Shown here: positions 2,413 through 61,457 of the stretch, piece after piece
Position numbering within the stretch: position 1 is the stretch's first letter
Layout: the number at the start of each line of letters is the position of its first letter
Assembly (NCBI RefSeq): GCF_012931685.1
Contig: NZ_JABANC010000003.1
Span: 124,001 to 188,000, forward strand
Reading direction: 5' to 3'
Source: Hanstruepera ponticola
Lineage (GTDB): Bacteria > Bacteroidota > Bacteroidia > Flavobacteriales > Flavobacteriaceae
DNA: 64,000 nucleotides
Position numbers and translations under genes: made by a program
Notes under the pieces: model-generated
Databases searched by the model: none
Told to the model about the DNA's origin: nothing
The model's input: only the letters and a program-made list of their open reading frames with translations

Positions 2413-2419
2413 AAACGTT

Positions 2420-2552: not shown

Positions 2553-2565
2553 ATTTAAGAAAAAT

Positions 2566-3556: not shown

Positions 3557-3571
3557 AGTAAAAAGAACATT

Positions 3572-4366: not shown

Positions 4367-4374
4367 AAAATACC

Positions 4375-4512
4375 TACTGCCAACACCGTGTATAATTAAT
4401 TGCTATGGCTAGTGCTTATCACGAAAATTCCTTCGGAATTTCCTCTGGCAAGTATTTGTTTACTAAATTAGTTGCTGCGCACGCAACTAACCATACACCA
4501 AACGTTAGCTGC
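4375..4512 (+). repeat. attC-like site between cassettes 4 and 5
   Basis: The outer arms are TACTGCCAAC (4375-4384) and GTTAGC (4504-4509). The inner arms GTGTAT (4388-4393) and ATACAC pair perfectly. A central hairpin GAAATTCC-type/GGAATTTC lies around 4430-4452. AATTGCTATGGCTAG and CTAAATTAGTTGC are shared with other sites in the array. Confidence 0.72.
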
Positions 4513-4541
4513 AATGTGAAAACAGGAATTTCAAATAACAT

Positions 4542-5171
4542 ATGAAAGACAAAGACATTTGGGAGCAAGTTTTTTCTAATATTCCAATGGAATGGAAAGA
4601 AGTTTCTCCAACAGATTCAATGCTTTTTTGTTTAGATTATTTTCAAAAACATAATGTTGAATCTGTATTAGATTTGGGATGTGGTGTAGGTATCTGGTCT
4701 GTTTTTTTAGCAAAAAATGGAATTTCTGTAAAAGGAGTAGATTTTTCTAAAAATGCAATTGAGTATGCCAAAAATTGGGCAAAAGAAGAAAAAGTTAGAG
4801 CTTTGTTTGATTATTCAGATTTAGTCAATCATTCTTTTAAAAAAGAATCTTTTGATGGAGTAGTCGCATCAAAAATTTTGGATAATATTTCGAGATTTAA
4901 ATTGTCTGAAGTTAGTCAACAAATTGAATCTAATTTAAATGATGGCGGAATTCTTTTTTGTGTCTTCAATCCGTATTTAAACGAAACAGATAGAGAAAAA
5001 CTAATGAAAAGCGATAATCCCACCAAAGGGATTACTCATACTGTATACAAAGATGAGGAATTAGAAAAAATCTTTCCCGAATTGAATTTATTAGAATTTA
5101 GAATTTTTGAGCACGGATTTAGAGGTTTGATATGGCAAAAAGAAGAAAACACAGCAGCTAACAATGTGTAA
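4542..5171 (+). CDS. Class I SAM-dependent methyltransferase
   Basis: This 209-residue cytosolic protein has a typical Rossmann methyltransferase core. Motif I is VLDLGCGVGIW (about 42-52), the acidic end of strand 2 is KGVDFS (about 65), and DGVVASKILDNI forms the motif IV region. The acceptor is not recognisable. The gene starts about 30 bases after the cassette boundary. Its last codons (AANNV) run into the GCAGCTAAC arm of the next attC-like site, typical of tightly packed cassettes. Confidence 0.87.
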   Translation: MKDKDIWEQVFSNIPMEWKEVSPTDSMLFCLDYFQKHNVESVLDLGCGVGIWSVFLAKNGISVKGVDFSKNAIEYAKNWAKEEKVRALFDYSDLVNHSFKKESFDGVVASKILDNISRFKLSEVSQQIESNLNDGGILFCVFNPYLNETDREKLMKSDNPTKGITHTVYKDEELEKIFPELNLLEFRIFEHGFRGLIWQKEENTAANNV

Positions 5172-47678: not shown

Positions 47679-47693
47679 GGTTATGGATTGGTT

Positions 47694-48305
47694 TTATTTT
47701 GAATATTCAATTAATTCTTCGGTATAAGAAAATCCGTCTTGCACTTGGGTCATTCTTATAAAGTTCTTGACTTCTGGAGCATACACCCACACTTCATCTG
47801 TTTGGGCACTATAACCCCTTGAATTGGAAACGGTTCCCTTGTATTCTATGGTGTAAGCCATAAATGTCCCTGCTCCTACGGTTTCTTCTTTATAGGATAG
47901 CACTTCTACGTCCTGACTTTGCTTTCCGGTAGTACCATCTTGACTGGTCCAGTCTTTTTCATAGGTCCATGTTTTACCAACCTCCAAAGGCCATTTATAG
48001 CGTGGTGTGGCACTCGTTTCAGGCTTTACAATGTCAGACACCAAAACGGTATCCTTACCTAAGGTCATGCCTAATGCGCCATTAATAGCAACAATACGTC
48101 TGGTGTCGGTTCCATCTGATCGGACTTCGCCTGCATCAGTAACGCCTTTATATTTCCACACCCACTTCTCGCCTAGCGAATAATCAGACAATACGGGTTG
48201 CTTCGTCACGGTTACAGCCTGATGACTCTTGCAAGATGCCAAAACCAATAGTGTTAAAGCCACTATGAATGTTACAATGTAATTCTGAATAAAAAAAGGT
48301 TTCAT
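47694..48305 (-). CDS. Hypothetical lipoprotein
   Basis: This 203-residue lipoprotein (TLLVLASC, Cys25) has a mature beta-rich domain: GEKWVWKYKGVTDAGEVRSDG, GKTWTYEKDWTSQDGTTGK, GTFMAYTIEYKGTVSN and YAQTDEVWVYAPEVKNFIRMT. This repeated strand pattern resembles Bacteroidota lipid-carrier-like (LolA/DUF-type) domains, without a firm family. It shares an operon with the CocE hydrolase, and the shared 16-bp motif lies 61 bases before its start. Confidence 0.75.
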   Translation of the reverse strand: MKPFFIQNYIVTFIVALTLLVLASCKSHQAVTVTKQPVLSDYSLGEKWVWKYKGVTDAGEVRSDGTDTRRIVAINGALGMTLGKDTVLVSDIVKPETSATPRYKWPLEVGKTWTYEKDWTSQDGTTGKQSQDVEVLSYKEETVGAGTFMAYTIEYKGTVSNSRGYSAQTDEVWVYAPEVKNFIRMTQVQDGFSYTEELIEYSK

Positions 48306-48365
48306 AATTCTAGTTTTTAATGATTAATGACACAAAGTAAAGGTCATTAAACGTGGCAAAAAACA

Positions 48366-48381
48366 AAAAGTACAGGAGCGT
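48366..48381 (+). promoter_or_regulatory. Shared 16-bp motif, copy 1
   Basis: AAAAGTACAGGAGCGT occurs 61-76 bases upstream of the lipoprotein/CocE operon. A 15 of 16 match (AAAAGTACAGGAACGT) is upstream of the LytS-type kinase gene at 50262. It may be the operator of the LytTR regulator encoded between them. Confidence 0.5.
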
Positions 48382-48423
48382 AACATAACGACATTAAACG
48401 TCAATAATTGAGGCATTTTAACC

Positions 48424-49146
48424 TTACAAACTATTCCAATTTCGAAACTTAACCGACTGACGGCTAGATACATCTATCGTTTCACCTGAAGTTAATTGAA
48501 TCTGCAACCTATTATTAAAATGCGGATGAATCGCTTGTATATAATGGGTATTGATTATCTGACTTCTATTCGCTCTAAAAAATACCGTAGGATCCAGTTT
48601 TTCCTCTAATAGATTTAACGAACGCTTAATCATAGCCTTCTGCTCACCAAAATACAAGCGTGCATAATTCTCCAACGATTCTATATACCGAATCTCAGAC
48701 AGTGGAATAAAATAACAAGCCTCTCCATCCTTAATAAATATCTTGCGGTGCATGGGCAACACATCGGGAGTGGCCTCACGTTTCTTGAGCAGTTCCTGTT
48801 TTACCTTGGCTATGGTTTTGGCAAAACGCTCGTCGCGCAAGGGTTTAACTAAATAATCCAAGGCATTCAACTCAAAGGCTTTAACCGCATACTGGTCATA
48901 AGCAGTTGTAAAAACCACTTCTGGTACCGTACCCAGTTCCTCCAATAAATCAAAGCCAGACTTTTCAGGCATATGGATGTCCAGGAAAATAATGTCGGGC
49001 ACTTCGGTTTCTATCAGTTTAAGAGCTTCATCTACATGCGAAGCCTCCCCGACCACATGAAATTCTTGGTGTGGCTTTAAAGCACGCTTTACCTCTTCTC
49101 TGGCCAAACGCTCATCGTCTATAATTATAGTTTTAAATGTCTTCAT
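48424..49146 (-). CDS. LytTR-family response regulator (second system)
   Basis: This 240-residue protein has a receiver domain (TIIIDDERLAREEV, FLDIHMPEKSGFDLL, YLVKPLRDERF) and a LytTR DNA-binding domain (IPLSEIRYIESLENYARLYFG, LLEEKLDPTVFFRANRSQIINTHYI). It overlaps the kinase gene by 14 bases. It probably controls the neighbouring CocE operon and its own operon through the shared 16-bp motif. Confidence 0.94.
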   Translation of the reverse strand: MKTFKTIIIDDERLAREEVKRALKPHQEFHVVGEASHVDEALKLIETEVPDIIFLDIHMPEKSGFDLLEELGTVPEVVFTTAYDQYAVKAFELNALDYLVKPLRDERFAKTIAKVKQELLKKREATPDVLPMHRKIFIKDGEACYFIPLSEIRYIESLENYARLYFGEQKAMIKRSLNLLEEKLDPTVFFRANRSQIINTHYIQAIHPHFNNRLQIQLTSGETIDVSSRQSVKFRNWNSL

Positions 49147-50221
49147 GGGTATTTAAAGGTAAAATAAGCTGCGCCTCTACAGTATGGGCATCCCGTGCTC
49201 TTAAGGTGCAGGTTGCTGCTGTTTTATATTGTAAGTCCAAGCGTTCTTTTAAATTCTTAAGCCCTACGCCTTTCGTGTTTGATGCTGTCAATTTTCCAGG
49301 GTTTTGTACGCTAATGACTAGCGTATCGTCTTGTTTACTAATGTCCAATCGTACAATACCACCTTTAACCGACTTATCAATACCGTGTTTAATGGCATTC
49401 TCTACTAGTAATTGAATACTTAAGGTTGGTATTTTAATAAGCTCTAAACTGTGGTCTAGCGTAATGTCTAGAGATAAGCGTTCTTCAAAGCGTAGTTTCT
49501 CCAATTCTATATAATCGCTTACCAAGGCCAGCTCGTCCTTAATAGTTATTAAATCGGTATTGGTTTCATAGAGCGAGGAGCGTAATAAATCTGATAACAA
49601 ATCTATGGCCCGTCTGGCTTTACTGGGGTTCTCCTCTATTAGTGACTTAATGGAGTTTAACGAATTGAATAAGAAATGCGGATTCAATTGCGCAGAAAGA
49701 TTATCTAATTGTATCTGTTTGGTTAAAATAGATAGTTGGGCATTTTCTTGAGCCGTAGCCACCTCTTTTTGGTAATAATGGTATAGGTGATACGCCAGAA
49801 TCCAGATGGACATTAAGCGTAAACCCGTAAGTAAAATAGGATCCCAATACACTAGGGCTTGCCCAAAATCTTCAACCTCGCCGGCAATAGCCGTCCAATA
49901 GACGTACCATTTTATATTGTTTAGCAACACATATAACACAGCCAAAACAAGGATGCTGGGTACTACCCTATACAGCAATTTCTTAAGCGGCAATGCGTTC
50001 CAGTGTCTATGTAAAGCAAAGCGCCTGTAACCATGCGTTAAACAAATACCAATGGCAATATCCAGCACATAGTTTATAAACGTGTAAAACACCCCATAGT
50101 TATCGCGTGTATACACCGTATAGGCCCAATAGATGGACACCAGGCTCCACCCCAGGAGCTGACAGGTCCAATACAGTGAAGGCTTGGTCTTACGGGTATG
50201 TGTGGTATTGCTACTAGCCAT
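49133..50221 (-). CDS. LytS-type sensor histidine kinase (second system)
   Basis: ATG at 50221 gives 362 residues; a start 18 bases upstream is also possible. It has four transmembrane helices in the first 150 residues. Then come SAQLNPHFLFNSLNSIKSL with the phosphorylated His, IPTLSIQLLVENAIKHG (N box) and VGLKNLKERLDLQY (G box). It forms an operon with its LytTR regulator. The second LytS/LytTR set in under 7 kb is a paralogue of 43856-45680. Confidence 0.92.
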   Translation of the reverse strand: MASSNTTHTRKTKPSLYWTCQLLGWSLVSIYWAYTVYTRDNYGVFYTFINYVLDIAIGICLTHGYRRFALHRHWNALPLKKLLYRVVPSILVLAVLYVLLNNIKWYVYWTAIAGEVEDFGQALVYWDPILLTGLRLMSIWILAYHLYHYYQKEVATAQENAQLSILTKQIQLDNLSAQLNPHFLFNSLNSIKSLIEENPSKARRAIDLLSDLLRSSLYETNTDLITIKDELALVSDYIELEKLRFEERLSLDITLDHSLELIKIPTLSIQLLVENAIKHGIDKSVKGGIVRLDISKQDDTLVISVQNPGKLTASNTKGVGLKNLKERLDLQYKTAATCTLRARDAHTVEAQLILPLNTHEDI

Positions 50222-50261
50222 TATGAAACAAAGCAACAAAATACTTTTTAATAGTAAAAAT

Positions 50262-50277
50262 AAAAGTACAGGAACGT
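50262..50277 (+). promoter_or_regulatory. Shared 16-bp motif, copy 2
   Basis: AAAAGTACAGGAACGT is the partner of the copy at 48366. It lies 40 bases upstream of the kinase start, in the same orientation relative to the downstream minus-strand gene. Confidence 0.5.
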
Positions 50278-50349
50278 CAGTTTTTAGGTATAGGCGTAAG
50301 TAGCAGAATATAACGGCATCTCACCCCATAAACATATAACCCAACGATT

Positions 50350-50375
50350 GTCATCCTGAACTTGTTTCAGGATCT
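50350..50375 (+). repeat. Dispersed REP-like repeat, copy 2
   Basis: GTCATCCTGAAC followed by TTGTTTCAGGATCT is a near-palindrome: ATCCTGAA/TTCAGGAT arms around a short loop. It marks the left edge of the DRT-bearing island. Confidence 0.65.
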
Positions 50376-50476
50376 ATTATTCCATAAAAATACCCACAAA
50401 ATTTATTGTTAAGCATTTCTCACGTATTTGAAATAAAATTGTAATTATCGTATATTTATTTGAATATCAATAAGTA

Positions 50477-50830
50477 ATGGAATCATTATCCGATTTAACT
50501 TTAGAACAATACGGACTCATACTAATCGTAGTTTCCGTTATTGGGCTTTACATAATTTTACTATTGGTAAGCAATGATTACAAAAAGCAAAAATGGATAA
50601 GCCATTGGAAAGCTCGCCGAGATTACTACCGGAACGTCTACCTAAAATCCGATGCCTGGCGTCGTAAACGCTATGTGGTATTCAAGCGTGATAATTGGAC
50701 CTGCCAATACTGTGGAGCTCGCGCCACCCAAGTACATCACAAACGCTATGCAAAATACCAGATTGGCAAAGAACCCATCAAATGGCTCGTGTCAGTATGC
50801 AAACCTTGTCATGATAAAATTCATGATTAA
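50477..50830 (+). CDS. HNH endonuclease with membrane anchor
   Basis: This 117-residue protein has one hydrophobic segment (about 13-31), a basic region and an HNH domain. Cys76-x2-Cys79, the HH pair at 87-88 (TQVHHKRY), Cys108-x2-Cys111 and His116 provide the zinc site and catalytic His. HNH proteins nick or cut DNA. A membrane-anchored version is uncommon. It converges on the phosphatase gene with a 4-base overlap at the stops. Confidence 0.88.
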   Translation: MESLSDLTLEQYGLILIVVSVIGLYIILLLVSNDYKKQKWISHWKARRDYYRNVYLKSDAWRRKRYVVFKRDNWTCQYCGARATQVHHKRYAKYQIGKEPIKWLVSVCKPCHDKIHD

Positions 50831-51165
50831 AATGAACGAACATCAACCCGTTCCTCCAAAACTCCAATCAAATCCCTATCATAATAAGTGTACACATCCT
50901 TTATCCCCAAAACCATAATCTTACCATAGCAACCACTACCAAAAACCGAAACAAGCGCCTTACGGTGCTTCTCCTCCATCACCAAAACCCTATCCGCCCA
51001 ATCCAATTGCGCTTGGCTAACATACGTAGTCCCAAGCTGCTCACAAACACGCTTATTCGTCCCAGCCGAGTCAAAATGCATATCAGGATATTTGGCACTA
51101 AAATAATCATCGGCCGTTTTAGACCGATCCTTATTTCCGCTACAAACAAACAGGATATTGGGCAT
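50827..51165 (-). CDS. Low-molecular-weight phosphatase-like protein
   Basis: This 112-residue protein starts MPNILFVCSGNKDRSKTADD, with the CX5R phosphate loop (Cys8 to Arg14) of low-molecular-weight tyrosine phosphatases. The usual late D-P-Y acid motif is replaced by DVYTYYDRDL, so activity on phosphotyrosine is uncertain. It may be a regulatory or DNA-damage-linked relative. It sits between the HNH gene and the DUF2779 nuclease. Confidence 0.82.
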   Translation of the reverse strand: MPNILFVCSGNKDRSKTADDYFSAKYPDMHFDSAGTNKRVCEQLGTTYVSQAQLDWADRVLVMEEKHRKALVSVFGSGCYGKIMVLGIKDVYTYYDRDLIGVLEERVDVRSF

Positions 51166-51202
51166 GAATATTAATTAATATTTAGAAAACTAAATAAAAT
51201 AA

Positions 51203-53167
51203 TTATTTGACTGATTCCCTAAAAAACTCATATATCATTACCATTGCTAATGTATCTAACTCACAATACATTAATAATGCTTTTCTTATTTCTAGTCTTT
51301 CTGCATCATTCATTTCTTGAAATTGTAATTTTGAATATGCAATTAATGCAGCTCCACCATTGTCAATTCCTTCTAAATCTGACATTAAACTATCTAATTC
51401 ATCCTCACTCCAATCATCGAATAATTGTGGTAAACTTTTATACGGACTTATAACTTTATCATTTTTGTCAAATTCAATGAATACTTTATCATCATTAAAA
51501 TTTAAACTTGTTAAAGAAATCTCTTTTATAGGTTTAGAATACTTATTTTTTAAATATTCACTACTGTTCAAAACTGCTGGTAGCACTGCCTTTATAGAGT
51601 TAGAGCCTTTTGTTTGAGGGTCATAATAGTATAACTTAACCATTTCACATAAATCTATCATATCCCTATCTCCTACCCAGGAAATAGCACTTTCATTTTT
51701 TGAATGGCTAATAGATTGTATAAAATCAACTAATTCTTCTTTGTCCTTTTCATTTGAAGATATTAATTGTAGATAGATAGCATTAAGAATAGTGTTTTCG
51801 TGATAAGAATATTTAAATATACTTCCATCATCAAAAGACAAAGATTTTTTTAAGTTTCTTAAAAAATCAAAATTCGGAAAACAACCTGCTTCAGAGTTGA
51901 TATATTCAGATTCGTGAGAAATAGAACCGTCTTCCAAAACTTTATGATGTGAAAATTGAAAAGCAATTTGCTCATAAGGCTTTTTCCCTTTATTAAATGG
52001 TATTGCAACTGTTGAAGTTTCAAAATCAATAAAATGTAATGGAAATTTCCAATTTCTCATTTCTAATTTTAATCCATCGATATCAATATAAGGAGTATTA
52101 TCATTTTCCTTTACTTTACTTATTTGTAACCACTGCCTTTCTGATAATGATAATCCATTAAGTTTTGGTACAATTGTTATATCATCTTCAGTTATATCTT
52201 TCATTAAATATAACCCTTCTTCGATCAATTTGGATGCAAGTTTAAAATTACCCACTTCATAAACTTTTGGCTCATTAGTAATCGCATAATTAGATATATT
52301 TACTTGTTCTTTCCAACATTCAATATATCCGCTTTTTAAACTGTCATTATAAACTGTTGTATAGAATTCACAGTTTTTGCATTTCACATTGACTGGAGAG
52401 TTTATTTTTATATCCTTTGAATAATACTCCGAAAATAGAGAAATAGCCTCTATAAAGGATAATGACTCATCATATTTATATACTCCAGACTTTATATTAG
52501 AAATAATTGTTTCCACAGGTACTTTAGCTAAAATAGATTCTCCAATATCATCTTTAGTAGTTCCTTCTTTAACAATTATTCCTGTACGGTTATTCGATTT
52601 AGATGTTACTTTAAATTTTTGATTTAAGCCATCAACAGTTGCTGTTTTACTTTTATCAATTAGTAATAAGAAAGGCTCGATTGTCCAATTAGAAAAGGCA
52701 TTTTCCATTACATAATTTTGAAAAGCAATATCAAATAAATATGCTTTCCATTCACTTCGAAGTCCTCCCCTTTTCCCTAAAATCGAATATTTATCATTAG
52801 AATTTATGGATTTCGCTTTTACTTCAATTAATTCTACAGAGTTACCTTTTTTTACCAAAATATCAACTCTAATAAAACAATTATTATACAAAAAAGCAGG
52901 TTCATAAAGAATGATATTTTCTTGCTTCAACAATTCATTAGTTTTCTTCACTAATAAATGATAATCCCATGGATTACCATCAACAAGCGTTCCTCCATCA
53001 TATTCTAACCTTGCCAATTCTTCTAACTGAAAACCACCTTGTGCTAATGCATCTAAGAAATCATCTTCCTTCTTTTGATTAGCATATTCGTTTTTATTTG
53101 TATAGTAAAGCTTGGTTGGACATTCCAGCCCTAATTTAAACCTTGATTTTGATAAGTATCTTTTCAT
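51203..53167 (-). CDS. DUF2779 nuclease: Cas4-like PD-(D/E)XK domain plus DEDD exonuclease
   Basis: This 654-residue protein is a fusion. The N-terminal half is Cas4/AddB-like: LSKSRFKLGLECPTKLYY (Cys16), RVDIL (Asp102) and IEVKAKS (Glu115, Lys117) make a PD-(D/E)XK site. With Cys16, Cys263, Cys266 and Cys284 (CKNCEF, YIECWK), these cysteines suit a 4Fe-4S cluster. The C-terminal half is DnaQ-like: LHFIDFETS (Asp381, Glu383), KYSYHENTIL and a final YCELDTL (Asp638), the three exonuclease motifs. It starts just after the DRT3 RNA terminator and may be a partner or a separate defence gene. Confidence 0.87.
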   Translation of the reverse strand: MKRYLSKSRFKLGLECPTKLYYTNKNEYANQKKEDDFLDALAQGGFQLEELARLEYDGGTLVDGNPWDYHLLVKKTNELLKQENIILYEPAFLYNNCFIRVDILVKKGNSVELIEVKAKSINSNDKYSILGKRGGLRSEWKAYLFDIAFQNYVMENAFSNWTIEPFLLLIDKSKTATVDGLNQKFKVTSKSNNRTGIIVKEGTTKDDIGESILAKVPVETIISNIKSGVYKYDESLSFIEAISLFSEYYSKDIKINSPVNVKCKNCEFYTTVYNDSLKSGYIECWKEQVNISNYAITNEPKVYEVGNFKLASKLIEEGLYLMKDITEDDITIVPKLNGLSLSERQWLQISKVKENDNTPYIDIDGLKLEMRNWKFPLHFIDFETSTVAIPFNKGKKPYEQIAFQFSHHKVLEDGSISHESEYINSEAGCFPNFDFLRNLKKSLSFDDGSIFKYSYHENTILNAIYLQLISSNEKDKEELVDFIQSISHSKNESAISWVGDRDMIDLCEMVKLYYYDPQTKGSNSIKAVLPAVLNSSEYLKNKYSKPIKEISLTSLNFNDDKVFIEFDKNDKVISPYKSLPQLFDDWSEDELDSLMSDLEGIDNGGAALIAYSKLQFQEMNDAERLEIRKALLMYCELDTLAMVMIYEFFRESVK

Positions 53168-53177
53168 TAATCTTAAT

Positions 53178-53208
53178 AAAAAAGTTAGCCCCAGAAAAAG
53201 CTAACTTT
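53178..53208 (-). terminator. Terminator closing the DRT3 RNA
   Basis: A 9-bp stem (AAAGTTAGC/GCTAACTTT) has a 10-base loop and a run of five Ts on the minus strand. It lies 14 bases before the DUF2779 start, so DUF2779 needs read-through or its own promoter. Confidence 0.75.
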
Positions 53209-53293
53209 GTGACTGTCTTTTTACGGACATATCAGGATGCTTGTGTGTGGCAATATAAAATTGCAAAAATTATCTGGTGCATCCCTTTATTGT
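53178..53293 (-). ncRNA. Candidate DRT3 non-coding RNA with CACACAC template
   Basis: Read on the minus strand, this gap after the second reverse transcriptase gene holds an outer stem GCATCC/GGATGC (plus-strand 53279-53284 and 53235-53240). Within it is an inner hairpin GCAAT/ATTGC (53250-53264). Then an unpaired CACACAC (53243-53249) precedes the closing arm. A terminator stem AAAGTTAGC/GCTAACTTT (53181-53208) with Ts closes it. DRT3 is reported to use an ACACAC-containing RNA as template for one of its two enzymes. The 5' end is not fixed. Confidence 0.72.
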
Positions 53294-55534
53294 TTACGAA
53301 TATGGTTCCAACGAACTTTTTGAATTTAATTCTTCAACTAAATTGAAATTATTCCATTTAGTAAACCAGTATTTTTGTTTTTCAACAAATTTAATAAACT
53401 CATCTTTTTCACTGCTTGGTATACCAAATAGTGTTAATATTTCTTTTTTAAATTTATTGTCATCTTCTTTTAGATAAGGACAAGATACTAAATCAAAAAA
53501 CAATAATACTAATTCAGAATACTTTGATCTTTCAGTTTTTTTGATATTCTTTATTTTACTTCTAATGGCATTTTTAACCATTACTTTAAGTCCTTTATAG
53601 ATTACAATATCTTTGAAATAAAACAGTAACACAGTAATTACAAAATAATTAATGTCATTTTTGAATTTATAACGTTTTGGACTATAACTTAAATTCTCAG
53701 ATGTCATTATTTCATCTAAATTTAAATATTTAACCAATTGTACCGTAGTTAATCTATAATCTTTTCCAAGCTCTTTTAATACTATTAGCAAATAAAGGGT
53801 TTCAATTTGCAAATTCTCATTTAGTTTACTCTTATCTAATACTAATATAATTTCATCTAGTACTTTTTTAAATATTTTCTCTTGATTGATTTTATCAAAT
53901 TGATTTAGCAGATTGTATTTTATTTTACCCTTAGAGTCTTCATAATTAAATCTATATCTTTTCTTAAATGTTTTATTAACAATAGATAAAATATTTACAA
54001 GTTTTATCGTTGAATTTACTTTTGGAGACACACCATAAAGGAAAAACACAAAATCAAGAATTTCTTCAATATATTTCGTAAATTTTGCTTCTTGTTTAAT
54101 TAGCTTTTTTTCTTCTTTTTTAGTCAGTAACCCATTGAATTTTCTTTTTTCTAGTTTTCTTTTATGCTCTTCATATTTCTTAATATTTCTCGTTAAGCTA
54201 CTTTTATAAATTGCTAAAGTATAATTCATTATATCTTTATAAAGAACATTTGACTCAACAACTATTGTTTTAAATTCTGTAATTAATTTATTTGAATTGC
54301 ATCTTATATCAACATCACTAACCTTTATCTTTTTGTCAGGAACAAAATTTGCGTCGTCTTTCTTATCTTCTGGAATTTTTTTATCTTCTTTATCTTTATC
54401 CTTTTTGATTTTAAATTTAATTTTATTCTTTAAAAGATTTACAATTTTATTCTTTGCTATTGTTATTTCTGTTATCAGCGGCTTTTCATATAATTTCGTC
54501 TTAGAATCATTCAAAGACATTTTGTACTCTTTTAAATTAATTTTATAATTATCTAAAACTTCATCTTTAGTTTTTCCATCATTATAGAAAACAAAAAAAT
54601 CGTCGACATATCTATAAATTTCATAATCAACTTTATGTACTAAGCCTTTTTTTCTTAATTTTTGTTCAATCTTTTTATCAATTTGCTGCAAAATCAACTC
54701 TGCAAAAATTCTAGAGAATTCAGGGCCAATAATTATTCCATTTGTTTCACCATAGTTAGTATTCTGCATAAACTTATCAAACTTTCCAGCAAAAGTATTT
54801 GAATCACGATTCAAGTTGTTCTTTACAAAATCTTTACTTATAATTGCCCAAGAAAGTGAGTGAGTATAGATACTGTCAAAACATTTTGCAATATCAAATT
54901 TGAACATTTTGTTATACTTTTTTTCTGCTCTATGATAAATATAGTCTTCATAAAATTTATAGATATTGGAGTATAATTCATAGGTAAAAAAAGTTTTTAA
55001 ATTTTTATATTCTTTTCCGCTTTCTTCAATAAAATCATCTTGATTTCCTTTTTTTGTTGCACCATCATTTAAATAAACAAATTTTGCTATGCTATTAGGT
55101 TTTCTGATTGAAAAAGGGCTTTGTTTGGAGTAATAAACAATTAGTTCTTTAAATTCTTCATAAAAAGAAACTAATTCAATTTGGCTCTTCGGATGTGGTA
55201 TTGCTAAATCACGAAAATCTTTTTCTTTATGAGTAATTTTATAATGAAAAGCTATTTTTCTTAATTCTTTCTCATTCAGTTTTAGGGTATTATTAGTTGA
55301 AGAAGAAATGTCTTTTATATCAAATAAAATGGATAGTAATCTTTTTAAAACGTCATCGTCTTTACATTTTATCCAACTTATGGAATCGTCTTTTAGTTTA
55401 ATTTTATGATTAACTAAAAATTCATAAAAATGACGATTTGAAAAAATAATTGGTGTTTCATAGGGAAGCACATCACTTAATACAGCCCTTTCTATCGAGT
55501 AACTAATTGGTTTTTTTGATATACTTTTTCTCAT
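53294..55534 (-). CDS. Antiviral reverse transcriptase Drt3b-like
   Basis: This 746-residue protein has RT motifs: FSIRKP (about 141-146), motif A FKFDIAKCFDSIY (Asp214), motif B NGIIIGPEFSRIFAE (about 266-280), motif C YRYVDDFFVF (Asp311, Asp312) and motif D-like LNDSKTKLYEKP. The N-terminus reads LSDVLPYETPIIFSNRHFY with Glu26. This N-terminal signature and the large helical C-terminal half (about 390-746) match the UG8 class, Drt3b. I recall, without being able to check, a report that Drt3b makes poly(AC) using protein side chains as template. It starts one base after the other RT gene's stop. Confidence 0.85.
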   Translation of the reverse strand: MRKSISKKPISYSIERAVLSDVLPYETPIIFSNRHFYEFLVNHKIKLKDDSISWIKCKDDDVLKRLLSILFDIKDISSSTNNTLKLNEKELRKIAFHYKITHKEKDFRDLAIPHPKSQIELVSFYEEFKELIVYYSKQSPFSIRKPNSIAKFVYLNDGATKKGNQDDFIEESGKEYKNLKTFFTYELYSNIYKFYEDYIYHRAEKKYNKMFKFDIAKCFDSIYTHSLSWAIISKDFVKNNLNRDSNTFAGKFDKFMQNTNYGETNGIIIGPEFSRIFAELILQQIDKKIEQKLRKKGLVHKVDYEIYRYVDDFFVFYNDGKTKDEVLDNYKINLKEYKMSLNDSKTKLYEKPLITEITIAKNKIVNLLKNKIKFKIKKDKDKEDKKIPEDKKDDANFVPDKKIKVSDVDIRCNSNKLITEFKTIVVESNVLYKDIMNYTLAIYKSSLTRNIKKYEEHKRKLEKRKFNGLLTKKEEKKLIKQEAKFTKYIEEILDFVFFLYGVSPKVNSTIKLVNILSIVNKTFKKRYRFNYEDSKGKIKYNLLNQFDKINQEKIFKKVLDEIILVLDKSKLNENLQIETLYLLIVLKELGKDYRLTTVQLVKYLNLDEIMTSENLSYSPKRYKFKNDINYFVITVLLFYFKDIVIYKGLKVMVKNAIRSKIKNIKKTERSKYSELVLLFFDLVSCPYLKEDDNKFKKEILTLFGIPSSEKDEFIKFVEKQKYWFTKWNNFNLVEELNSKSSLEPYS

Positions 55535-55535
55535 T

Positions 55536-56966
55536 TTATTTCCAAACTGATATTATTCTTTCAAAATTATTATCTAATTTTTTTATCTCTTTCAGTTTAT
55601 CTGGTCGCAGATCAGGTATGTTTTTCTTTTTAGAATTTATATTAAAAAACCTTTTATTCTTAAATCCATCTTCAAAACTATATTCCTTTAGTTTTTTGTT
55701 TAAACTTTTGTAAGTACTACTTGGTAATTTGTGATCAATTATTTTGTGTAATTCATTATCTAAAAACTCTAAATCTTTACAATTTTTCTCTATTAAACTA
55801 TTAGAATAATATATTCCCACTAAACCCTTTTTTGGTTTGTGTAGTCTTGTGTTTTTTGTCAAATAGTTAAATCTATGTAATAATAACTTTGATGCTTCAG
55901 AAGATGCAAAAACCTTTTGTTCGAGAAAAACATCGATAGTTTTTTCTATTCTTGATAGATATCTGTCCTTTTTGTTTTTAGATATAGATGTTCCTGTATA
56001 TTCTGAGTTTTCAATACTGAAAACGTAACCTAAAAATTCAATTTTTATTAAGCTTTTATCACTATTTAAATCATAAGGGTATGTTTTTGATGGATTCATT
56101 AATAAACTACTTTCAGAAATAATCTCTTCAACCTTATTTTTATAATCATCAAGGCTCATTTTCCAACTTGGAGTAAAGAGAACAATTATATCATCGACAT
56201 ATCTACCATAATAAGTTACGTTACCTAACCTTTTTATTTTATTATCTACTTCTCGCATATAAAGTTCCGCCAAATATGCACTTATTCCTGCGCCTCTTGG
56301 TATACCTTTTCTTTCATTAACAGGCAGTTTTATTTGGTCAGTTAGTACATTATAACTATAAAATAGATTTTTAATTAAAGTCTTTGATTTTGGGCTTAAC
56401 AATTGGTTATCATTAATCATGTTTAAAAGCCGCTCTTGTGGTACACTCTCGTAAAAACCTTTAATATCTGTTCTCAAAACTATTTTAGGGAAATTATCTT
56501 TAATTAAAGACTGAACTTGTTTTGAAATCAAATATCTGTTGCCTTGTTTGACTTTAAAAGTGCGATTTATGTTAAATTGCAATTGTTTCATAGCAAAATA
56601 CGAGGATGCATCTTTACCTATCGGATAAACATACTTACCACTTGCTTCGTGTAAGAATTTAGAAAACACAAACTTAAAACCTTTACTATTTACATTTTCG
56701 ACATATTCTTGCAAAGTAATTTCTAATTCATTCTTTTTCTTCTCTTCAATCTTTTTCTTTTCTTCATTAAGTTCTAAAAGACGTTCGTCATCCTTAGCTA
56801 TATCTCCCTTACTTTTAAATGCTTTTATTATTTTTCTTTGCTTTTTTAATTCATTTGATAGATCAAGGAATTTATCGGAATAATATTTTGTTTCAAAATT
56901 TCCTTTACGGTTTTCAATTTCAAATATTTTATTGAAGTTTTCTAAAGAAAATGATTGGTCTAACAT
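55536..56966 (-). CDS. Antiviral reverse transcriptase Drt3a-like
   Basis: This 476-residue protein has a coiled-coil N-terminal part (about 35-85, rich in Lys and Glu). A complete RT palm follows: motif A KIVLRTDIKGFYESV (Asp167), motif B RKGIPRGAGISAYLAEL (about 219-235), motif C YYGRYVDDIIVLF (Asp258, Asp259), and IEFLGYVFS (motif E region, about 309-317). The C-terminal 150 residues are helical. As the first gene of an RT-RT pair it fits UG3 (Drt3a), reported to copy an ACACAC RNA template into poly(GT). It heads an operon with a palindromic operator-like site directly upstream. Confidence 0.85.
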   Translation of the reverse strand: MLDQSFSLENFNKIFEIENRKGNFETKYYSDKFLDLSNELKKQRKIIKAFKSKGDIAKDDERLLELNEEKKKIEEKKKNELEITLQEYVENVNSKGFKFVFSKFLHEASGKYVYPIGKDASSYFAMKQLQFNINRTFKVKQGNRYLISKQVQSLIKDNFPKIVLRTDIKGFYESVPQERLLNMINDNQLLSPKSKTLIKNLFYSYNVLTDQIKLPVNERKGIPRGAGISAYLAELYMREVDNKIKRLGNVTYYGRYVDDIIVLFTPSWKMSLDDYKNKVEEIISESSLLMNPSKTYPYDLNSDKSLIKIEFLGYVFSIENSEYTGTSISKNKKDRYLSRIEKTIDVFLEQKVFASSEASKLLLHRFNYLTKNTRLHKPKKGLVGIYYSNSLIEKNCKDLEFLDNELHKIIDHKLPSSTYKSLNKKLKEYSFEDGFKNKRFFNINSKKKNIPDLRPDKLKEIKKLDNNFERIISVWK

Positions 56967-57028
56967 ATCTGTTTAAAATCTTTATCTAGTTTTAGTTAAT
57001 TAATTTCTTCAAATTACAACTTCAAACT

Positions 57029-57059
57029 CAAAAATAAAATACGTACAAGTACGTATTTT
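57029..57059 (-). promoter_or_regulatory. Promoter with operator-like palindrome upstream of the RT operon
   Basis: On the minus strand a perfect 11-bp inverted repeat (AAAATACGTAC/GTACGTATTTT, 2-base centre, 57036-57059) runs directly into a -7 box TATTTTTG (57036-57029). The start codon is 63 bases downstream. A repressor bound here would block the promoter; no regulator gene is adjacent. Confidence 0.5.
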
Positions 57060-57067
57060 TATAAACC

Positions 57068-57110
57068 AAAAAAAACCCACTCTGGCTCTCTCCAAAACCA
57101 AAGCGGGTTT
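57068..57110 (-). terminator. Terminator of the MARNTSF gene
   Basis: The stem CCCGCTTTGG/CCAGAGTGGG (with G-T pairs) has a loop of about 12 bases and eight Ts on the minus strand. It separates the upstream gene from the RT operon. Confidence 0.8.
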
Positions 57111-57132
57111 ACTAATTAATCAGTCAGGAAAA

Positions 57133-57933
57133 TTATCCCGTTACAGCAACTTTCATGGCATTACCTTGTGCCAATACATAAAGCTCACTGTTTATCTCTT
57201 GGTAAAACACAATACCAACAGTCGCAAACAGCGCACTACTGGCAGGTATCACACCAAGGGCACTCATATCAACCGTTAGCGTTGTATCAGCACCCACCAT
57301 ACCGCCTAGCGCTATGGCATCACTATAAAACACATCACCCCTGCCATTCACCAACTCATCAGTGGGCACATAGGTTTCCGTAGTTTTCTCAAACACATAA
57401 TTATCCACATACCCCGCAGCCAGCACCAGTTTAAAATGCGTAGCACCTTCCGGAGCACGCAAATACGAGTCCGTATCAAAATCAGGTACCAACCACGTCA
57501 CAATATCACGGGTGGCATTAATACTAGGCAACCCACTGGGTGCAAAAAATTGGGTGTTAAAAGGGTCATTCAGGTTAAACTCAAAGTTCAACAAAATATC
57601 CCGCATACTCACCACATCAAAGTCCCGTTCACCACGAACACCAGAACCATTTTTGTTAATCAATTTCATGGTGCGGTTAAGTCGGCCACTCAAATAGGTA
57701 TCGCCCATCAGGCGCACCACATTAGCAAAGGCATCTCTAAAGGCTTTGGCAACCTTACTGGCACCGCCAAATTCAATCATGTTCTCGCGCGTACGCTTGT
57801 ACGTCGGGTCGTTCATAATACGGTTTTTACTCACGCTACTCTTTGTTTTAACAACATTTTCGCCGTCTTTGTTATAAAAGGTCAACCCATCCAGGGTGCC
57901 TTCCAACTTAATAAAGCTTGTGTTACGAGCCAT
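57133..57933 (-). CDS. Hypothetical protein (MARNTSF family)
   Basis: ATG at 57933 gives 266 residues; the longer reading from 58083 has no match. The sequence begins MARNTSFIKLEGTLDGLTFY, then NKDGENVVKTKSSVSKNRI and a helical region. Its second half is beta-rich (VTWLVPDFDTDSYLRAPEGATHFKL). Proteins with this opening occur in several Bacteroidota genomes as I recall, with no known function. It is clearly richer in G+C than neighbouring genes, suggesting separate origin. A GATATACC/GGTATATC hairpin at 57949-57974 lies 16 bases upstream of its start, possibly an operator. Confidence 0.82.
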   Translation of the reverse strand: MARNTSFIKLEGTLDGLTFYNKDGENVVKTKSSVSKNRIMNDPTYKRTRENMIEFGGASKVAKAFRDAFANVVRLMGDTYLSGRLNRTMKLINKNGSGVRGERDFDVVSMRDILLNFEFNLNDPFNTQFFAPSGLPSINATRDIVTWLVPDFDTDSYLRAPEGATHFKLVLAAGYVDNYVFEKTTETYVPTDELVNGRGDVFYSDAIALGGMVGADTTLTVDMSALGVIPASSALFATVGIVFYQEINSELYVLAQGNAMKVAVTG

Positions 57934-57948
57934 TTTAATAAGTATTAT

Positions 57949-57974
57949 GATATACCAATACACATCGGTATATC
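57949..57974. promoter_or_regulatory. Inverted repeat upstream of the MARNTSF gene
   Basis: Perfect 8-bp arms GATATACC/GGTATATC lie around a 10-base loop, 16 bases upstream of the start. It could be an operator or an mRNA leader hairpin. Confidence 0.4.
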
Positions 57975-58320
57975 TGGTTAATAAATACAGATTAGACTTG
58001 GGATCTAAATCTTTAAAACAAATTGCTATTAAGTAATTCTTGGGAGAGATAATAATAAAAACGATTTCCGGAATCGTAACCATGCCTACCCTTCTACCTC
58101 GCGATCGCAGAAATGAGAAGCATCGTCAAATCAAATATATAAAATCGAAATTAACAACCAAACCGTTTGAATTACAGTATTTTATAAAAAATCAGCCTTT
58201 CATTGAAAATTTTTCAAAATCAGATTCAAAAAAATTCCACTTTTTAGAAAATTCTTACAACCACCTGAATACCAATTATTAAAATCATAAAAATGCATAC
58301 CTCTAAATTTTGGTCATTTT

Positions 58321-58375
58321 TCCTTAAGGTCTGCGTCAGGTTTCCTTAAGGTCTCCTTAAGGTCTCCTTAAGGTC
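58321..58375. repeat. 11-bp iterated repeats with palindromic core
   Basis: TCCTTAAGGTC occurs at 58321-58331, 58343-58353, 58354-58364 and 58365-58375; the last three are in perfect tandem. Each contains the palindrome CCTTAAGG. Such iteron-like spacing (about one helical turn) is typical of protein-binding arrays, but no origin or regulator is nearby. Confidence 0.65.
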
Positions 58376-58438
58376 AAACCGTGAAAATTCCTACAAAAAA
58401 CGACCCAAAAAACACCATTAACAAAAAAGCATAAAAAA

Positions 58439-58467
58439 AGGTGCCCAAAACTAAAATTTAGACACCT
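58439..58467 (-). terminator. Weak putative terminator downstream of ohr
   Basis: A 5-bp stem AGGTG/CACCT is followed by a T run on the minus strand. It is 245 bases past the ohr stop, beyond REP-like repeats, so weakly supported. Confidence 0.35.
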
Positions 58468-58493
58468 ATTTGAATTTTTAAAACCTCCTCGTC

Positions 58494-58537
58494 ACTTCGA
58501 GTGTTCCGACCGAAGCGTCGGAATGTATCGAGAAGTC
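58494..58537. repeat. Dispersed repeat of a second type (GTCACTTCGAGTG)
   Basis: GTCACTTCGAG then GTTCCGACCGAAGCGTCGGAA then TCGAGAAGTCA: CCGAC/GTCGG pair around GAAGC, and ACTTCGAG/CGAGAAGT flank them. A compact hairpin in the ohr downstream region; no copy elsewhere in the window. Confidence 0.5.
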
Positions 58538-58574
58538 AATACAGTTATTTTTTTCCTGCAATCATATTGAGCTT

Positions 58575-58600
58575 GTCATCCTGCGCTTGACGCAGGATCC
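58575..58600 (+). repeat. Dispersed REP-like repeat, copy 3
   Basis: GTCATCCTGCGC followed by TTGACGCAGGATCC has arms ATCCTGCG/CGCAGGAT. A third short hairpin TTCCGCA/TGCGGAA lies at about 58622-58640. It marks the right edge of the island. Confidence 0.6.
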
Positions 58601-58673
58601 ATCAGATACTACTTTACATAGATTCCGCATCAAGTGCGGAAATCGAAGATTCGACGAAGTCAATGACAAAAAT

Positions 58674-58699
58674 GGATGCTGAAACAAGTTCAGCATGAC
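58674..58699 (-). repeat. Dispersed REP-like repeat, copy 4 (inverted)
   Basis: Read on the minus strand: GTCATGCTGAAC then TTGTTTCAGCATCC, with arms ATGCTGAA/TTCAGCAT. It lies 12 bases before the ohr stop end. Confidence 0.6.
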
Positions 58700-58711
58700 A
58701 AAGGTTGAGAG

Positions 58712-59140
58712 TTATTCATCCAACAACAAGTTTAAAGTCACCGTAATATTATCGCGTGTAGCCTTACTAAATGGGCAAACTTCATGAGCACTTTCAACCA
58801 ATTGCTCGCCAGTCTCCAGATCAACACCTGGAATATAGCAATCTAGTGTAGCTTCTAGACAAAACCCATCATCATCCTTACAAAAGCCAATAACAGCGGT
58901 CACGCTTAAAGCGGCGTCATCAATATCCAAACCTTGTTGTTTGGCAATAGCTTGTATAGCACCACCAAAACAGGCCGCATAGGCCGCACCAAATAATTGT
59001 TCCGGGTTAGCACCATCACCACCAGCACCTCCCATAGATTTAGGTACTGATAAGTTAAAGTCAATAGGACCGTTCTCTGATTTTACATAGCCTGCTCTGC
59101 CACCAACAGCTTCGGTGGTAGCTTCATATAATGTTTTCAT
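58712..59140 (-). CDS. Organic hydroperoxide reductase (Ohr/OsmC)
   Basis: This 142-residue protein is a canonical Ohr. It begins KTLYEATTEAVGGRAGYVK with the family GGAGGDGANPEQLF, and has reactive cysteine Cys57 (AAYAACFGG) and resolving Cys122 (HEVCPFSKATR). It reduces organic hydroperoxides with lipoyl thiols. It is a single gene; no OhrR regulator is adjacent. Confidence 0.95.
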   Translation of the reverse strand: MKTLYEATTEAVGGRAGYVKSENGPIDFNLSVPKSMGGAGGDGANPEQLFGAAYAACFGGAIQAIAKQQGLDIDDAALSVTAVIGFCKDDDGFCLEATLDCYIPGVDLETGEQLVESAHEVCPFSKATRDNITVTLNLLLDE

Positions 59141-59472
59141 GTTTTCTTTTTTTAGAATGAATCATAAAGATACTATCCCACACATCATCAGTAAAGTGAT
59201 TTCTCATAAATTTCTCTTAAAATACAAATGAGGAGTTAAAGACCTAAAAAAGAGCCCTAAAGGCTTTGAATTGTCAATTATATTTCCTATATTAGTTGAA
59301 TCTTAATTGGGGTGCTTAAGTATTATACAGCTGAAAACAAACCCATTGAACTTCGTCGGATAATGCCAACTGAAGGAATTAAGATACCAAAGGGAATTGA
59401 AGGTGTAAAAAATCTTTTAATTCCCTTTGTTTATTTAGTGCTATACCTTGATTCAGACACGCTATTTGAATA
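59141..59472. other. 332-base gap between two minus-strand genes
   Basis: No gene is supported. The only structure is a perfect 11-bp inverted pair CAAAGGGAATT (59388-59398) and AATTCCCTTTG (59419-59429) around a 20-base loop, which may end the upstream oxidoreductase transcript (minus). A 40-codon + strand reading here has no support. Confidence 0.6.
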
Positions 59473-60192
59473 TTACTTACTATAGATAACAGGCATCTGC
59501 CCTTTCCATTTACTCCAAAGGTTTTCGTTAGTAATAAGACTTGCCATAAAATGCCCCACATTAATACGGCTTACTTTACCTGCATTAAAAATAGCACTTC
59601 GTGTTGGTGAGGCGTGAATCTCATAGTCGGTTACGGTGTCTTCGTTAATCAAACCATCTGGTCTTACGGCAACCCATTCAATTGTTTGATGGTCCTGCCC
59701 TATTTGTGTTCTTAAATAATCTGCTGCTTTTTCATTATCTACATGCGGTGGTAAGAGTAAACGCAACAATCCTATAACACACTTTTGAGCAAAGGAAATG
59801 GGTTCGTTTAAATCCCGATTACGATTCCCTGTAGTATTCATTAGCACATACTTTACAGGTTGCTGTGGGTTATTAGACACTATTGCTTGGCATAATCTGC
59901 GTGTCGCATCTGTAACCAAGCGTCTTGGATGACCGTACACGCCTTTAAACGTCAGGTTATGCCCCAGACAGGATGCTACAGCCTGACAATCGTGAACAAT
60001 ATTGCGCATTTCGGTATCGGTTAATTCTAATACGCTTGCAGCAATTATTTGGAGATTGTCATTAGTTTTCCAAGCATCTGGCGCCTTTTCAGGAGACCTT
60101 ACAATGACTTTTACATTATGGTTTTGAACAAGTAGTTGTTCAACTAATTTACTTCCGGTTGCCCCACTGGCACCTACTACTAAAACTGTCAT
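59473..60192 (-). CDS. NAD(P)-binding (NmrA/SDR-like) protein
   Basis: This 239-residue protein has a Rossmann fold at the N-terminus (VLVVGASGATGSKLVEQLL, glycine motif 7-13). Features of the atypical short-chain dehydrogenases follow: KVIVRSPEKAP, CQAVASCLGHNL, YVLMNTTGN and WVAVRPDGLIN. The usual YxxxK catalytic pair is absent, which points to NmrA-like redox sensing or epimerase-related roles. It starts 51 bases after the serine hydrolase stop, probably cotranscribed. Confidence 0.88.
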   Translation of the reverse strand: MTVLVVGASGATGSKLVEQLLVQNHNVKVIVRSPEKAPDAWKTNDNLQIIAASVLELTDTEMRNIVHDCQAVASCLGHNLTFKGVYGHPRRLVTDATRRLCQAIVSNNPQQPVKYVLMNTTGNRNRDLNEPISFAQKCVIGLLRLLLPPHVDNEKAADYLRTQIGQDHQTIEWVAVRPDGLINEDTVTDYEIHASPTRSAIFNAGKVSRINVGHFMASLITNENLWSKWKGQMPVIYSK

Positions 60193-60243
60193 GATTATTT
60201 TGATTGATTGTGATACTTAAAAGACGCCGTAGTACAACAAATG

Positions 60244-61296
60244 TTACAATGACTGATTCGTTGCTTTCCGTAAGATTTTAACAACACGGTTATGGGTTAT
60301 TTCTAGTAAATTATATTGGTAACCTTCAAAATCGGTGGTATTCATAAATTGTATAACCACGGCATCGATATCTTTATGGTATTCTGCCATACTTTGATGA
60401 CCTGGTACCAGACCACCATGGTTGTACTCATAAGGATAGATTTCCTGTTCGCCTGCATCAAATACAGAACCATCGTTTAAGGCTCGTAAAAATATTGCCA
60501 CATCTTCTGCTGTTGCTATCATGCCGTATTCATTCGCCTTAAAATCTTCATCATACCCAACGTAATACCCACTCATAACATCATCTAGATTCACTTCATT
60601 AAGCGAAAAAAAGGTGTTATGCAATTCAAGCGGTTTTAGTATGCGCTCTTTTATAAACTGTTCGTGACTATGGCCTGTTACCTTTTTAATAAGCTCCCGA
60701 AGCAATAAATAATTGGTATTTGAATATTCATAACCTTCATCGGGTTCAAAACTAGCTGGGAGATCGAGAGCAAAATCGAGTGCTGTTTTACTATTGGTTT
60801 GTTCGTCTTCCCAATAAGCGGGATTATCTGTGAAATTTGGTATGCCAGACCGGTGTTGAACCATCATTTTTAAGGTAATGGTTTCTGCATTTTCAATTCT
60901 ACCTACAAGCTCTGGAAAATAATCTGCTAGCGTTTCATCTAAAGACAATTGCTTATCGCCTACTAATTTTGTGATAGATACGGCAATATATAACTTGCTG
61001 ATACTGGCAATTTTAAATAAGGCATCAGGTTTGGCTGGTATTTGTTGTTCGCGGTTATGATAGCCTGCCGTATAAAAGGCTGGTGCTTTACCAGCTTGAT
61101 CTACATAAACAATAACGCCATCAAAACCATAGGTTAATGTTTGATCCACTTGCTCCTGAACGGTGTCTGGCAGTGGTACTATCCAGGCTTTGACTATAAT
61201 CCATGGCACAAACCATAAGGATATAACCGTACCTACCAGTAATACGATTCTAAATAGTTGTTTGCCTTTACTTTTTTTTCGCGTAGACTTTTTCAT
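60244..61296 (-). CDS. Class C beta-lactamase-like serine hydrolase
   Basis: This 350-residue protein has a membrane anchor (about 14-34). The penicillin-binding/beta-lactamase fold is shown by SxxK in ASISKLYIA (Ser98, Lys101), YSN in YEYSNTNY, and a later HGG in YNHGGLVPGHQS. Relatives are DD-peptidases, esterases or D-aminopeptidases. It is exposed to the periplasm and likely acts on cell-wall peptides or esters. No beta-lactam resistance is implied. Confidence 0.92.
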   Translation of the reverse strand: MKKSTRKKSKGKQLFRIVLLVGTVISLWFVPWIIVKAWIVPLPDTVQEQVDQTLTYGFDGVIVYVDQAGKAPAFYTAGYHNREQQIPAKPDALFKIASISKLYIAVSITKLVGDKQLSLDETLADYFPELVGRIENAETITLKMMVQHRSGIPNFTDNPAYWEDEQTNSKTALDFALDLPASFEPDEGYEYSNTNYLLLRELIKKVTGHSHEQFIKERILKPLELHNTFFSLNEVNLDDVMSGYYVGYDEDFKANEYGMIATAEDVAIFLRALNDGSVFDAGEQEIYPYEYNHGGLVPGHQSMAEYHKDIDAVVIQFMNTTDFEGYQYNLLEITHNRVVKILRKATNQSL

Positions 61297-61457
61297 ATCT
61301 CTTATTATACTTCAATTGGTTGGTGTAACTTTATGGTACAAATATATTGGAGAAAGCCATACCTATATATTGAATTTAACCGAACTGTAGTATTTTATGG
61401 ATGAATTGATTCTTGTTAGGATATGCTGCAATCCATTGATTGGCAAATCCCTATTGT

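Follow-up and report, generated by a model that had tools for sequence, protein, structure and literature searches.

A DRT3 cassette of Hanstruepera ponticola with a DUF2779 gene, encoding a predicted nuclease, behind its RNA

The closest described system to the locus reported here is DRT3 of Escherichia coli (EcoDRT3; PMC13174585; structures 26cz, 9z6y and 9z6z), which comprises two reverse transcriptases (RTs), DRT3a and DRT3b, and an RNA. As described in PMC13174585, DRT3a and the RNA make poly(dTdG), and DRT3b makes untemplated poly(dCdA) starting from Tyr666; in the latter reaction, Glu22 and Arg241 choose A or C and Arg71 helps. The RNA lies behind drt3b and presents an ACACAC template in a loop. 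According to the same source, the duplex is restrained by RecBCD, DRT3 cannot be maintained in RecBCD knock-outs, phage Gam triggers the system, and abortive infection occurs without a dedicated effector gene. Host nucleases limit RT-made DNA in two systems covered there, namely ExoI in DRT9 and RecBCD in DRT3. About 97% of UG3 RTs adjoin a UG8 RT (PMC8934634). In DRT3, side chains of a protein take the place of a template, and how its DNA is kept harmless in hosts other than E. coli is of interest. We analyzed a stretch of 64,000 nucleotides from Hanstruepera ponticola, a member of the Flavobacteriaceae (contig NZ_JABANC010000003.1, positions 124,001 to 188,000; hereafter the window, in which position 1 is the first letter of the stretch). 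At about 51200-57010, the window contains a small and apparently mobile cassette, which is very probably a DRT3 system with a DUF2779 nuclease gene as a cassette member. Its core (drt3a, drt3b and RNA) is, judging from sequence, the known system DRT3, and an anti-phage identity is predicted for it by homology.

The order of drt3a, drt3b and RNA in the window and the AC-repeat template are the same as in EcoDRT3. A preliminary description of this DNA had claimed two complete RT genes separated by a single base, and both genes are indeed intact, lie on the minus strand and are exactly one base apart. The first gene, drt3a (55536-56966), encodes an RT of 476 amino acids with a YVDD box at Asp258-259. 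The second gene, drt3b (53294-55534), encodes an RT of 746 amino acids with a YVDD box at Y309-D312 (Asp311-312) and an N-terminal LPYETPI motif that includes Glu26. The boxes and the motif are where they had been reported. The proteins had been assigned to UG3 and UG8, respectively, and a search with profiles of Drt3a and Drt3b had been suggested as a check. When this search was run, Drt3a/UG3 and Drt3b/UG8 were the top family matches: Drt3a scored 344.6 bits against the NCBIfam equivalog model NF041747 (curated cut-off, 200) and Drt3b scored 695.4 bits against the equivalog model NF041748 (curated cut-off, 350), whereas models of group II introns and other RT classes, best hits to which had been named as evidence against the assignment, were far lower. 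The PADLOC models gave E-values of 6.7e-102 for Drt3a and 1.7e-189 for Drt3b. The best solved-structure match of Drt3a was 9z6y_A, which is named Drt3a (3.3e-16), and that of Drt3b was 26cz_A (5.7e-77), followed by 9z6y_H, which is named Drt3b (1.8e-63). Because the residue numbering of 26cz agrees with that in PMC13174585, we take 26cz to be E. coli DRT3b. In the alignment with 26cz, E26, R108, D214, F219, R275, D311, D312 and Y745 of the window Drt3b correspond to the published E22, R71, D182, F187, R241, YVDD box and Y666. Of these, E26, R108, R275 and Y745 stand for the residues to which protein-templated, Tyr-primed synthesis of poly(CA) has been ascribed, and the equivalents of E22, R71, R241, YVDD and the C-terminal Tyr are common to both systems. 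The window Drt3b is longer (746 amino acids), however, than EcoDRT3b, which is described up to residue 667 in PMC13174585.

The RNA that completes a DRT3 set had been invoked but not demonstrated in the preliminary description, although the span given there (53178-57059) includes it. At the published place behind drt3b, we predict an AC-repeat template RNA at about 53178-53293 (minus strand) from its fold, the consensus fold of six relatives and a covariance model (R1); its ends are approximate and the 3′ end was placed at a terminator-like hairpin. From 5′ to 3′ on the minus strand, the fold and the consensus fold give the 5′ arm of a helix around the template loop, here called the closing helix (53279-53285), and an inner hairpin just 5′ of the template (53250-53264). 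The template tract CACACACA (53242-53249), read from the sequence, contains the ACACAC published in PMC13174585. The 3′ arm of the closing helix follows (53234-53240), for which pairing after partner shuffling was also considered, and the RNA ends with the terminator-like hairpin (53181-53208), which was found by a terminator scan and is followed by a T-rich tail. The fold beats dinucleotide shuffles (z -2.80), with 2 of 200 shuffles being as good. Among the six close relatives, including the window, 4 of the 28 predicted pairs are changed on both sides with pairing kept. R1 was built from these six relatives and run over 81 sources, where it matched the five training members included there and gave 24 weaker matches (E 0.0047 to 7.8). 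Counted from the coordinates, 20 of the weaker matches lie directly behind drt3b and 4 lie elsewhere. Most of them are non-significant singly, and the evidence is their position behind drt3b; R1 thus reached 20 of 76 non-training loci and missed 56. Pairing between the arms of the closing helix is better with their own partners, at 7.96, than after exchange of partners among loci, which gave 7.24 (sd 0.08; 200 shuffles, 82 sequences), and the same was observed with the 59 distinct right arms only (8.01 versus 7.25, sd 0.09), although this excess is inflated by related sequences. A search of Rfam over 50000-59000 gave no match.

The template and the residues of Drt3b are conserved in relatives. 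Genomes were scanned with an alignment of 12 Drt3b proteins (A1, from which the incomplete gene of locus L031 was excluded), and the best 80 of 261 relatives by similarity to A1 were used. When the neighbouring genes of the window and these 80 loci were clustered, a Drt3a-like and a Drt3b component were found in 81 of 81 loci; a lack of such pairing in related genomes had been named as an outcome that would speak against DRT3. In 80 of the 80 scan loci, the stop codon of drt3b is followed, after no more than 130 nt, by the start of an AC tract with at least three units; when 15194 random 140-nt stretches were taken from the same loci, 347 had such a tract. All 79 loci with a readable N-terminus have the Glu of the [LH]P[YF]E motif (L125, in which the drt3b frame is open for 305 amino acids only, was excluded from this count and from the Drt3b tree), and Tyr is the last or last-but-one residue of Drt3b in all 80. 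Because the scan used the patterns IGPEFSRI and [YFR]RYVDD[YF]F, the conservation of YVDD and R275 in these loci partly reflects the search itself; selection did not extend to E26, Y745 or the AC tract. Fourteen more loci with a full DRT3-like match came from plasmids (seven) and viral contigs (seven). Their AC tract starts within 156 nt in 14 of 14 cases, and, some of the genes being broken or shortened, 11 of them have the Glu motif, 12 the GPExSR-type Arg motif and 13 a Tyr in the last or last-but-one place. The plasmid hits fetched were H1-H4, H6-H8, H11 and H12 (not H5). The viral contigs gave no match in a scan with a single protein and nine loci in a scan with the alignment; seven of these were examined, and the partial RT matches L219 and L220 were left out. 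Taken together, all 94 loci that have a full DRT3-like match carry an AC template behind drt3b, a count that excludes L201, L202, L203 and L205 with their more distant RTs. This fits selection on the product sequence itself. In two loci outside the 80, the AC tract lies further from drt3b (219 nt in L005 and 183 nt in L031).

Behind the RNA, the window differs from EcoDRT3. A gene for a protein of 654 amino acids (51203-53167, minus strand) matches Pfam PF11074 (DUF2779) with 75.5 bits (gathering cut-off, 23.3), and we propose its product, which the preliminary description had not named, as the likely fourth component. In contrast, we found no mention of DUF2779 for EcoDRT3, and the words Cas4, accessory and AddAB are absent from the main text of PMC13174585. 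Nucleotide similarity of the window to three related loci (L056, L058 and L059) extends from near 57.0 kb to near 51.2 kb, at the end of the DUF2779 gene; outside the cassette, the similarity is 37-55%. At L057, where there is no DUF2779 gene, the nucleotide similarity to the window ceases right after the RNA. Because the similarity ends with the DUF2779 gene, we counted it as support for the membership of this gene in the cassette. The G+C content of the island (51203-56966) is 26.1%, as compared with 39.5% (46000-51200) and 39.1% (57000-64000) on either side, so that the AT-rich island of the preliminary description is borne out. The same description had placed this island next to other nucleases. 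This holds for the adjoining DUF2779 gene, which lies inside the island; a gene for an HNH protein (50477-50830) lies outside it, on the strand opposite to the cassette and past a phosphatase-like gene. The small HNH gene (plus strand) and the short phosphatase-like gene (minus strand) occupy 50477-51165, outside the cassette, where the G+C content is higher.

Among the 80 loci and the window, no neighbour family is as common as DUF2779, which is present in 13 of 81 loci; the family in second place is present in 8. Ten of the 13 copies are located directly behind the RNA on the drt3b strand and start 108-248 nt past drt3b, when start codons are assigned mechanically. In this slot, 10 of 15 genes (at least 150 amino acids) encode DUF2779, as compared with 3 of 724 other neighbour genes (Fisher 6.7e-17, a value that ignores kinship). 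When the copies were collapsed by hand to lineages, three of six DUF2779 lineages were linked (three linked and three other copies; P 1.6e-4), and this value is rough because one of the other copies (L068) is a sister of the linked L060. The linked copies are distributed over two groups. In the Flavobacteriaceae, they are those of the window, L056, L058, L059 and L060, and a further one (G109, L009/L138) was found by a genome search; in L056, L058, L059 and G109, the contig of which begins inside drt3b, the order drt3b-RNA-DUF2779 is as in the window. The other holders (L087, L088, L092, L108 and L126) belong to Pseudomonadota according to the Drt3b tree and, by their genera, to Alphaproteobacteria. 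In the Drt3b tree, the linkage label needs six changes, at least four by starred branches. In the DUF2779 tree (39 rows), linked copies stand in three places and the label needs four changes, at least three by starred branches. Both trees are quick trees without bootstrap; the DUF2779 tree includes the 25 unlinked loci, of 28 tried, that gave a usable frame (L152, L160 and L182 gave none) and leaves out L146, L153, L156 and matches without loci. In 299 genomes of Flavobacteriaceae, a Drt3b match (E <1e-60) was found in 9 and a long DUF2779 match (E <1e-100) in 18. Both were present in four genomes (expected, 0.54; P 0.001), and the two genes are adjacent in all four. Moreover, nine linked genomes were reached through named loci, and in each of them PF11074 matches just once, at the DRT3 locus. 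The window DUF2779 protein is 82% identical to that of L056, 92% to that of L058, 58% to that of L059 and 85% to that of G109. The nearest Drt3b is that of L056 (86%; the same gene as L006), whereas the nearest DUF2779 protein is that of L058, and this difference suggests an exchange of parts among cassettes. These observations argue that the DUF2779 gene belongs to the DRT3 cassette. In the literature searched, we found no account that joins DUF2779, or a Cas4-like or accessory nuclease, with DRT3. Within that literature, the nuclease-bearing cassette is a new variant of a system with an already known core; a description could exist elsewhere. In other loci, the first gene behind the DRT3 RNA is a different one: AbiH in L127, Schlafen/AlbA_2 in L103 and an RlaP-type nucleotidyltransferase in L070.

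The DUF2779 family has been placed among presumed 3′-5′ exonucleases of the RNase H-like superfamily (family F.17), where it is called uncharacterised and is noted to carry a DUF83 domain resembling PD-(D/E)XK nucleases (PMC3985635). In the window protein, we assign two putative catalytic sets: a Cas4-like PD-(D/E)XK motif (D102, E115 and K117, with Cys16) and a DEDD exonuclease motif (D381, E383, D505 and D638). Among ten linked copies, D102, E115, K117 and Cys16 are invariant, as are D381, E383 and D638, and D505 is nearly so. Models of Cas4 match two of two alphaproteobacterial forms (4.5e-7 and 7.4e-8). From the Pfam match, these Cas4 matches, the invariant motifs and PMC3985635, the DUF2779 protein is predicted to be a nuclease with two domains. 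The window protein has the domain in common with other PF11074 proteins and keeps the catalytic motifs; the unlinked copies examined lie in other neighbourhoods. Two AlphaFold models of DUF2779 proteins have middling confidence (mean pLDDT, 70.1 and 73.5). The top 50 Foldseek entries for the second model include Cas4 complexes, AdnAB, lambda exonuclease, Exo5, RNase T and ExoI, which is suggestive only; the list for the first model is weaker and more mixed. Neither the DUF2779 protein nor its alignment gave a credible match when solved structures were searched by sequence.

What the cassette may do can be outlined by combining two sources: families, residues, RNA and cassette membership come from this analysis, and DNA synthesis and abortive infection are taken from the work on E. 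coli. By homology, Drt3a would use the AC-repeat loop of the RNA as its template for poly(dTdG). Drt3b would start from Tyr745 at its own C-terminus and make poly(dCdA) without a nucleic-acid template, with Glu26 and Arg275 selecting A and C alternately. The two strands would anneal to repeat DNA, and its accumulation would halt the infected cell. In uninfected cells, the DUF2779 nuclease would trim the repeat DNA or its ends, as RecBCD does in E. coli; a phage that blocks, diverts or outpaces the nuclease would cause repeat DNA to pile up, and the system would fire. Our tentative proposal, the likeliest of the roles considered here, is that DUF2779 is a brake on repeat DNA encoded in cis. In DRT9 and EcoDRT3, the limiting nuclease is a host enzyme, whereas here it would be encoded by the cassette. 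We put forward a fuller version with a little more reserve: a four-component DRT3 in which a two-domain exonuclease (RecB/Cas4-like and ExoI/RNase T-like) serves as built-in brake and phage sensor, so that a guard role of the RecBCD type would be carried in the cassette; the DUF2779 family would have supplied the nuclease on at least three occasions. If the brake is real, DRT3 could move between hosts independently of their nucleases. The ATG codon of the DUF2779 gene (53167) lies 14 nt beyond the last base of the RNA hairpin (53181); therefore, expression of the gene probably needs read-through of the hairpin or a promoter inside the RNA.

Several observations weigh against a nuclease brake that is proper to DRT3. 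With respect to the protein, Cas4 models match neither of two flavobacterial relatives nor the window DUF2779 protein itself, and no Foldseek match of the two models reached E 0.001 or better. With respect to the link, 71 of the 81 loci have no DUF2779 gene in the slot (at least 6 of these stop within about 700 nt of drt3b, so that the true count is slightly uncertain), and four more alphaproteobacterial plasmid DRT3 loci have none. Because the gene is absent from most loci, it is not essential to DRT3. Furthermore, among 289 genomes of the class of L087, DRT3 was found in four and the linked nuclease in two of these four (G683 and G686), which were already known as linked genomes, G683 being the centre of the class search; a third close DUF2779 copy in this survey is in a genome without a Drt3b match (G828). 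Unlinked DUF2779 genes lie in other neighbourhoods, some of which have restriction- or defence-like genes, as read from open reading frame starts only. Finally, 22 of 23 genomes fall below the RecB cut-off, with and without a linked nuclease, and Yersinia (L111) alone passes; weaker RecB matches are present in all 23, and what they cover of the model is mostly its helicase part. Because RecB is below the cut-off irrespective of the nuclease, lack of RecBCD does not predict the DUF2779 gene, and the idea that the nuclease replaces a missing RecBCD is not supported. A nuclease that recurs behind the DRT3 RNA is a testable candidate for control of the repeat DNA in hosts in which no RecB passes the curated cut-off (22 of 23 genomes).

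The unlinked DUF2779 genes in defence-like loci indicate that co-location in defence islands explains part of the link. It might explain all of it: DUF2779 would then be an independent defence gene that hitchhikes in such islands, linked without any mechanism. The rarity of the link (10 of 81 loci) and the different nearest partners in the Drt3b and DUF2779 trees fit this idea. Mere co-location would, however, scatter the gene over neighbouring places, yet 10 of 13 copies occupy a single slot. The lineage-collapsed P value, rough as it is, and the excess of Flavobacteriaceae genomes with both genes, adjacent in every case, also speak against it, and we regard a pure hitchhiker as somewhat doubtful. 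A gene proper to the cassette could also act in the opposite sense to a brake, its product being an effector or activator. Triggered by the repeat DNA or the RT complex, or making use of either, this protein would attack DNA of the phage or the host. The position directly behind the RNA on the same strand and the intact appearance of both nuclease motif sets suit such a role, and since EcoDRT3 defends without this gene (PMC13174585), the protein could be an added weapon here. The same E. coli work, on the other hand, describes abortion of infection without an effector gene and toxicity when RecBCD is removed or inhibited, and the best-ranked, non-significant fold matches of DUF2779 are mostly exonucleases; an effector is thus unlikely. 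It is much less probable that DUF2779 helps synthesis, for example by trimming ends so that DRT3a can start or reset. No primer of DRT3a is reported in PMC13174585, and a 3′-5′ exonuclease could make such ends, but E. coli DRT3a, given the RNA, needs no nuclease for poly(dTdG) synthesis in vitro (PMC13174585), and most loci do without the gene. The reading that the two RTs form some other pair, of UG or group II-like type, and not DRT3 can be dismissed, since nothing in its favour was found (the group II maturase model gave 41.7 and 73.7 bits against a cut-off of 300), both RTs exceed their curated equivalog cut-offs, their best matches are solved DRT3 proteins, and the RNA and gate residues are present.

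Upstream of the cassette, a terminator scan found a terminator-like site at 57073-57110. The region between this site and drt3a (56967-57072, minus strand) is where we expect the promoter of the operon; a promoter scan found fewer sites than in its shuffled controls. The gene just upstream of the cassette (57133-58083) is of unknown family, has a second relative within its own genome and has matches in two of four other genomes of the genus. No empty chromosomal site was worked out from the one flank gene searched, which matched three of five genomes of the genus including its own.

The scans also brought up RT loci that diverge from DRT3. Three RT pairs (L201, L202 and L203) and one single RT (L205) have no AC tract directly behind the gene; in the three pairs, the strand of drt3b carries no AC tract behind this gene. 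A changed template or changed gates were considered for these pairs, and the AC/GT triplets scattered there could be chance. L201, on a Lactiplantibacillus plantarum plasmid (NZ_CP143286.1, 1551-5004), has Drt3a-like and Drt3b-like RTs in divergent orientation. The former is so called by its position and RT motifs, and the latter has the Glu and Arg motifs and a Tyr near the C-terminus. On the strand of the Drt3a-like RT, ACACAC occurs in the stretch that separates the two genes; this single short tract could be chance, and L201 is possibly a rearranged DRT3. RT-like gene pairs are also found in Erysipelothrix phage SE-1 (L203, 1356-4863) and in a faecal phage (L202, MT836158.1, about 1460-5000). 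In both, the second RT-like gene resembles Drt3b in its N-terminal half (28-31% identity), and in L203 a TGTGTGT behind this gene is either a variant or chance. In an E. coli plasmid (L204, CP083496.1, 2965-5008), drt3b is annotated as two hypothetical genes and looks interrupted, and the AC tract is still present behind it.

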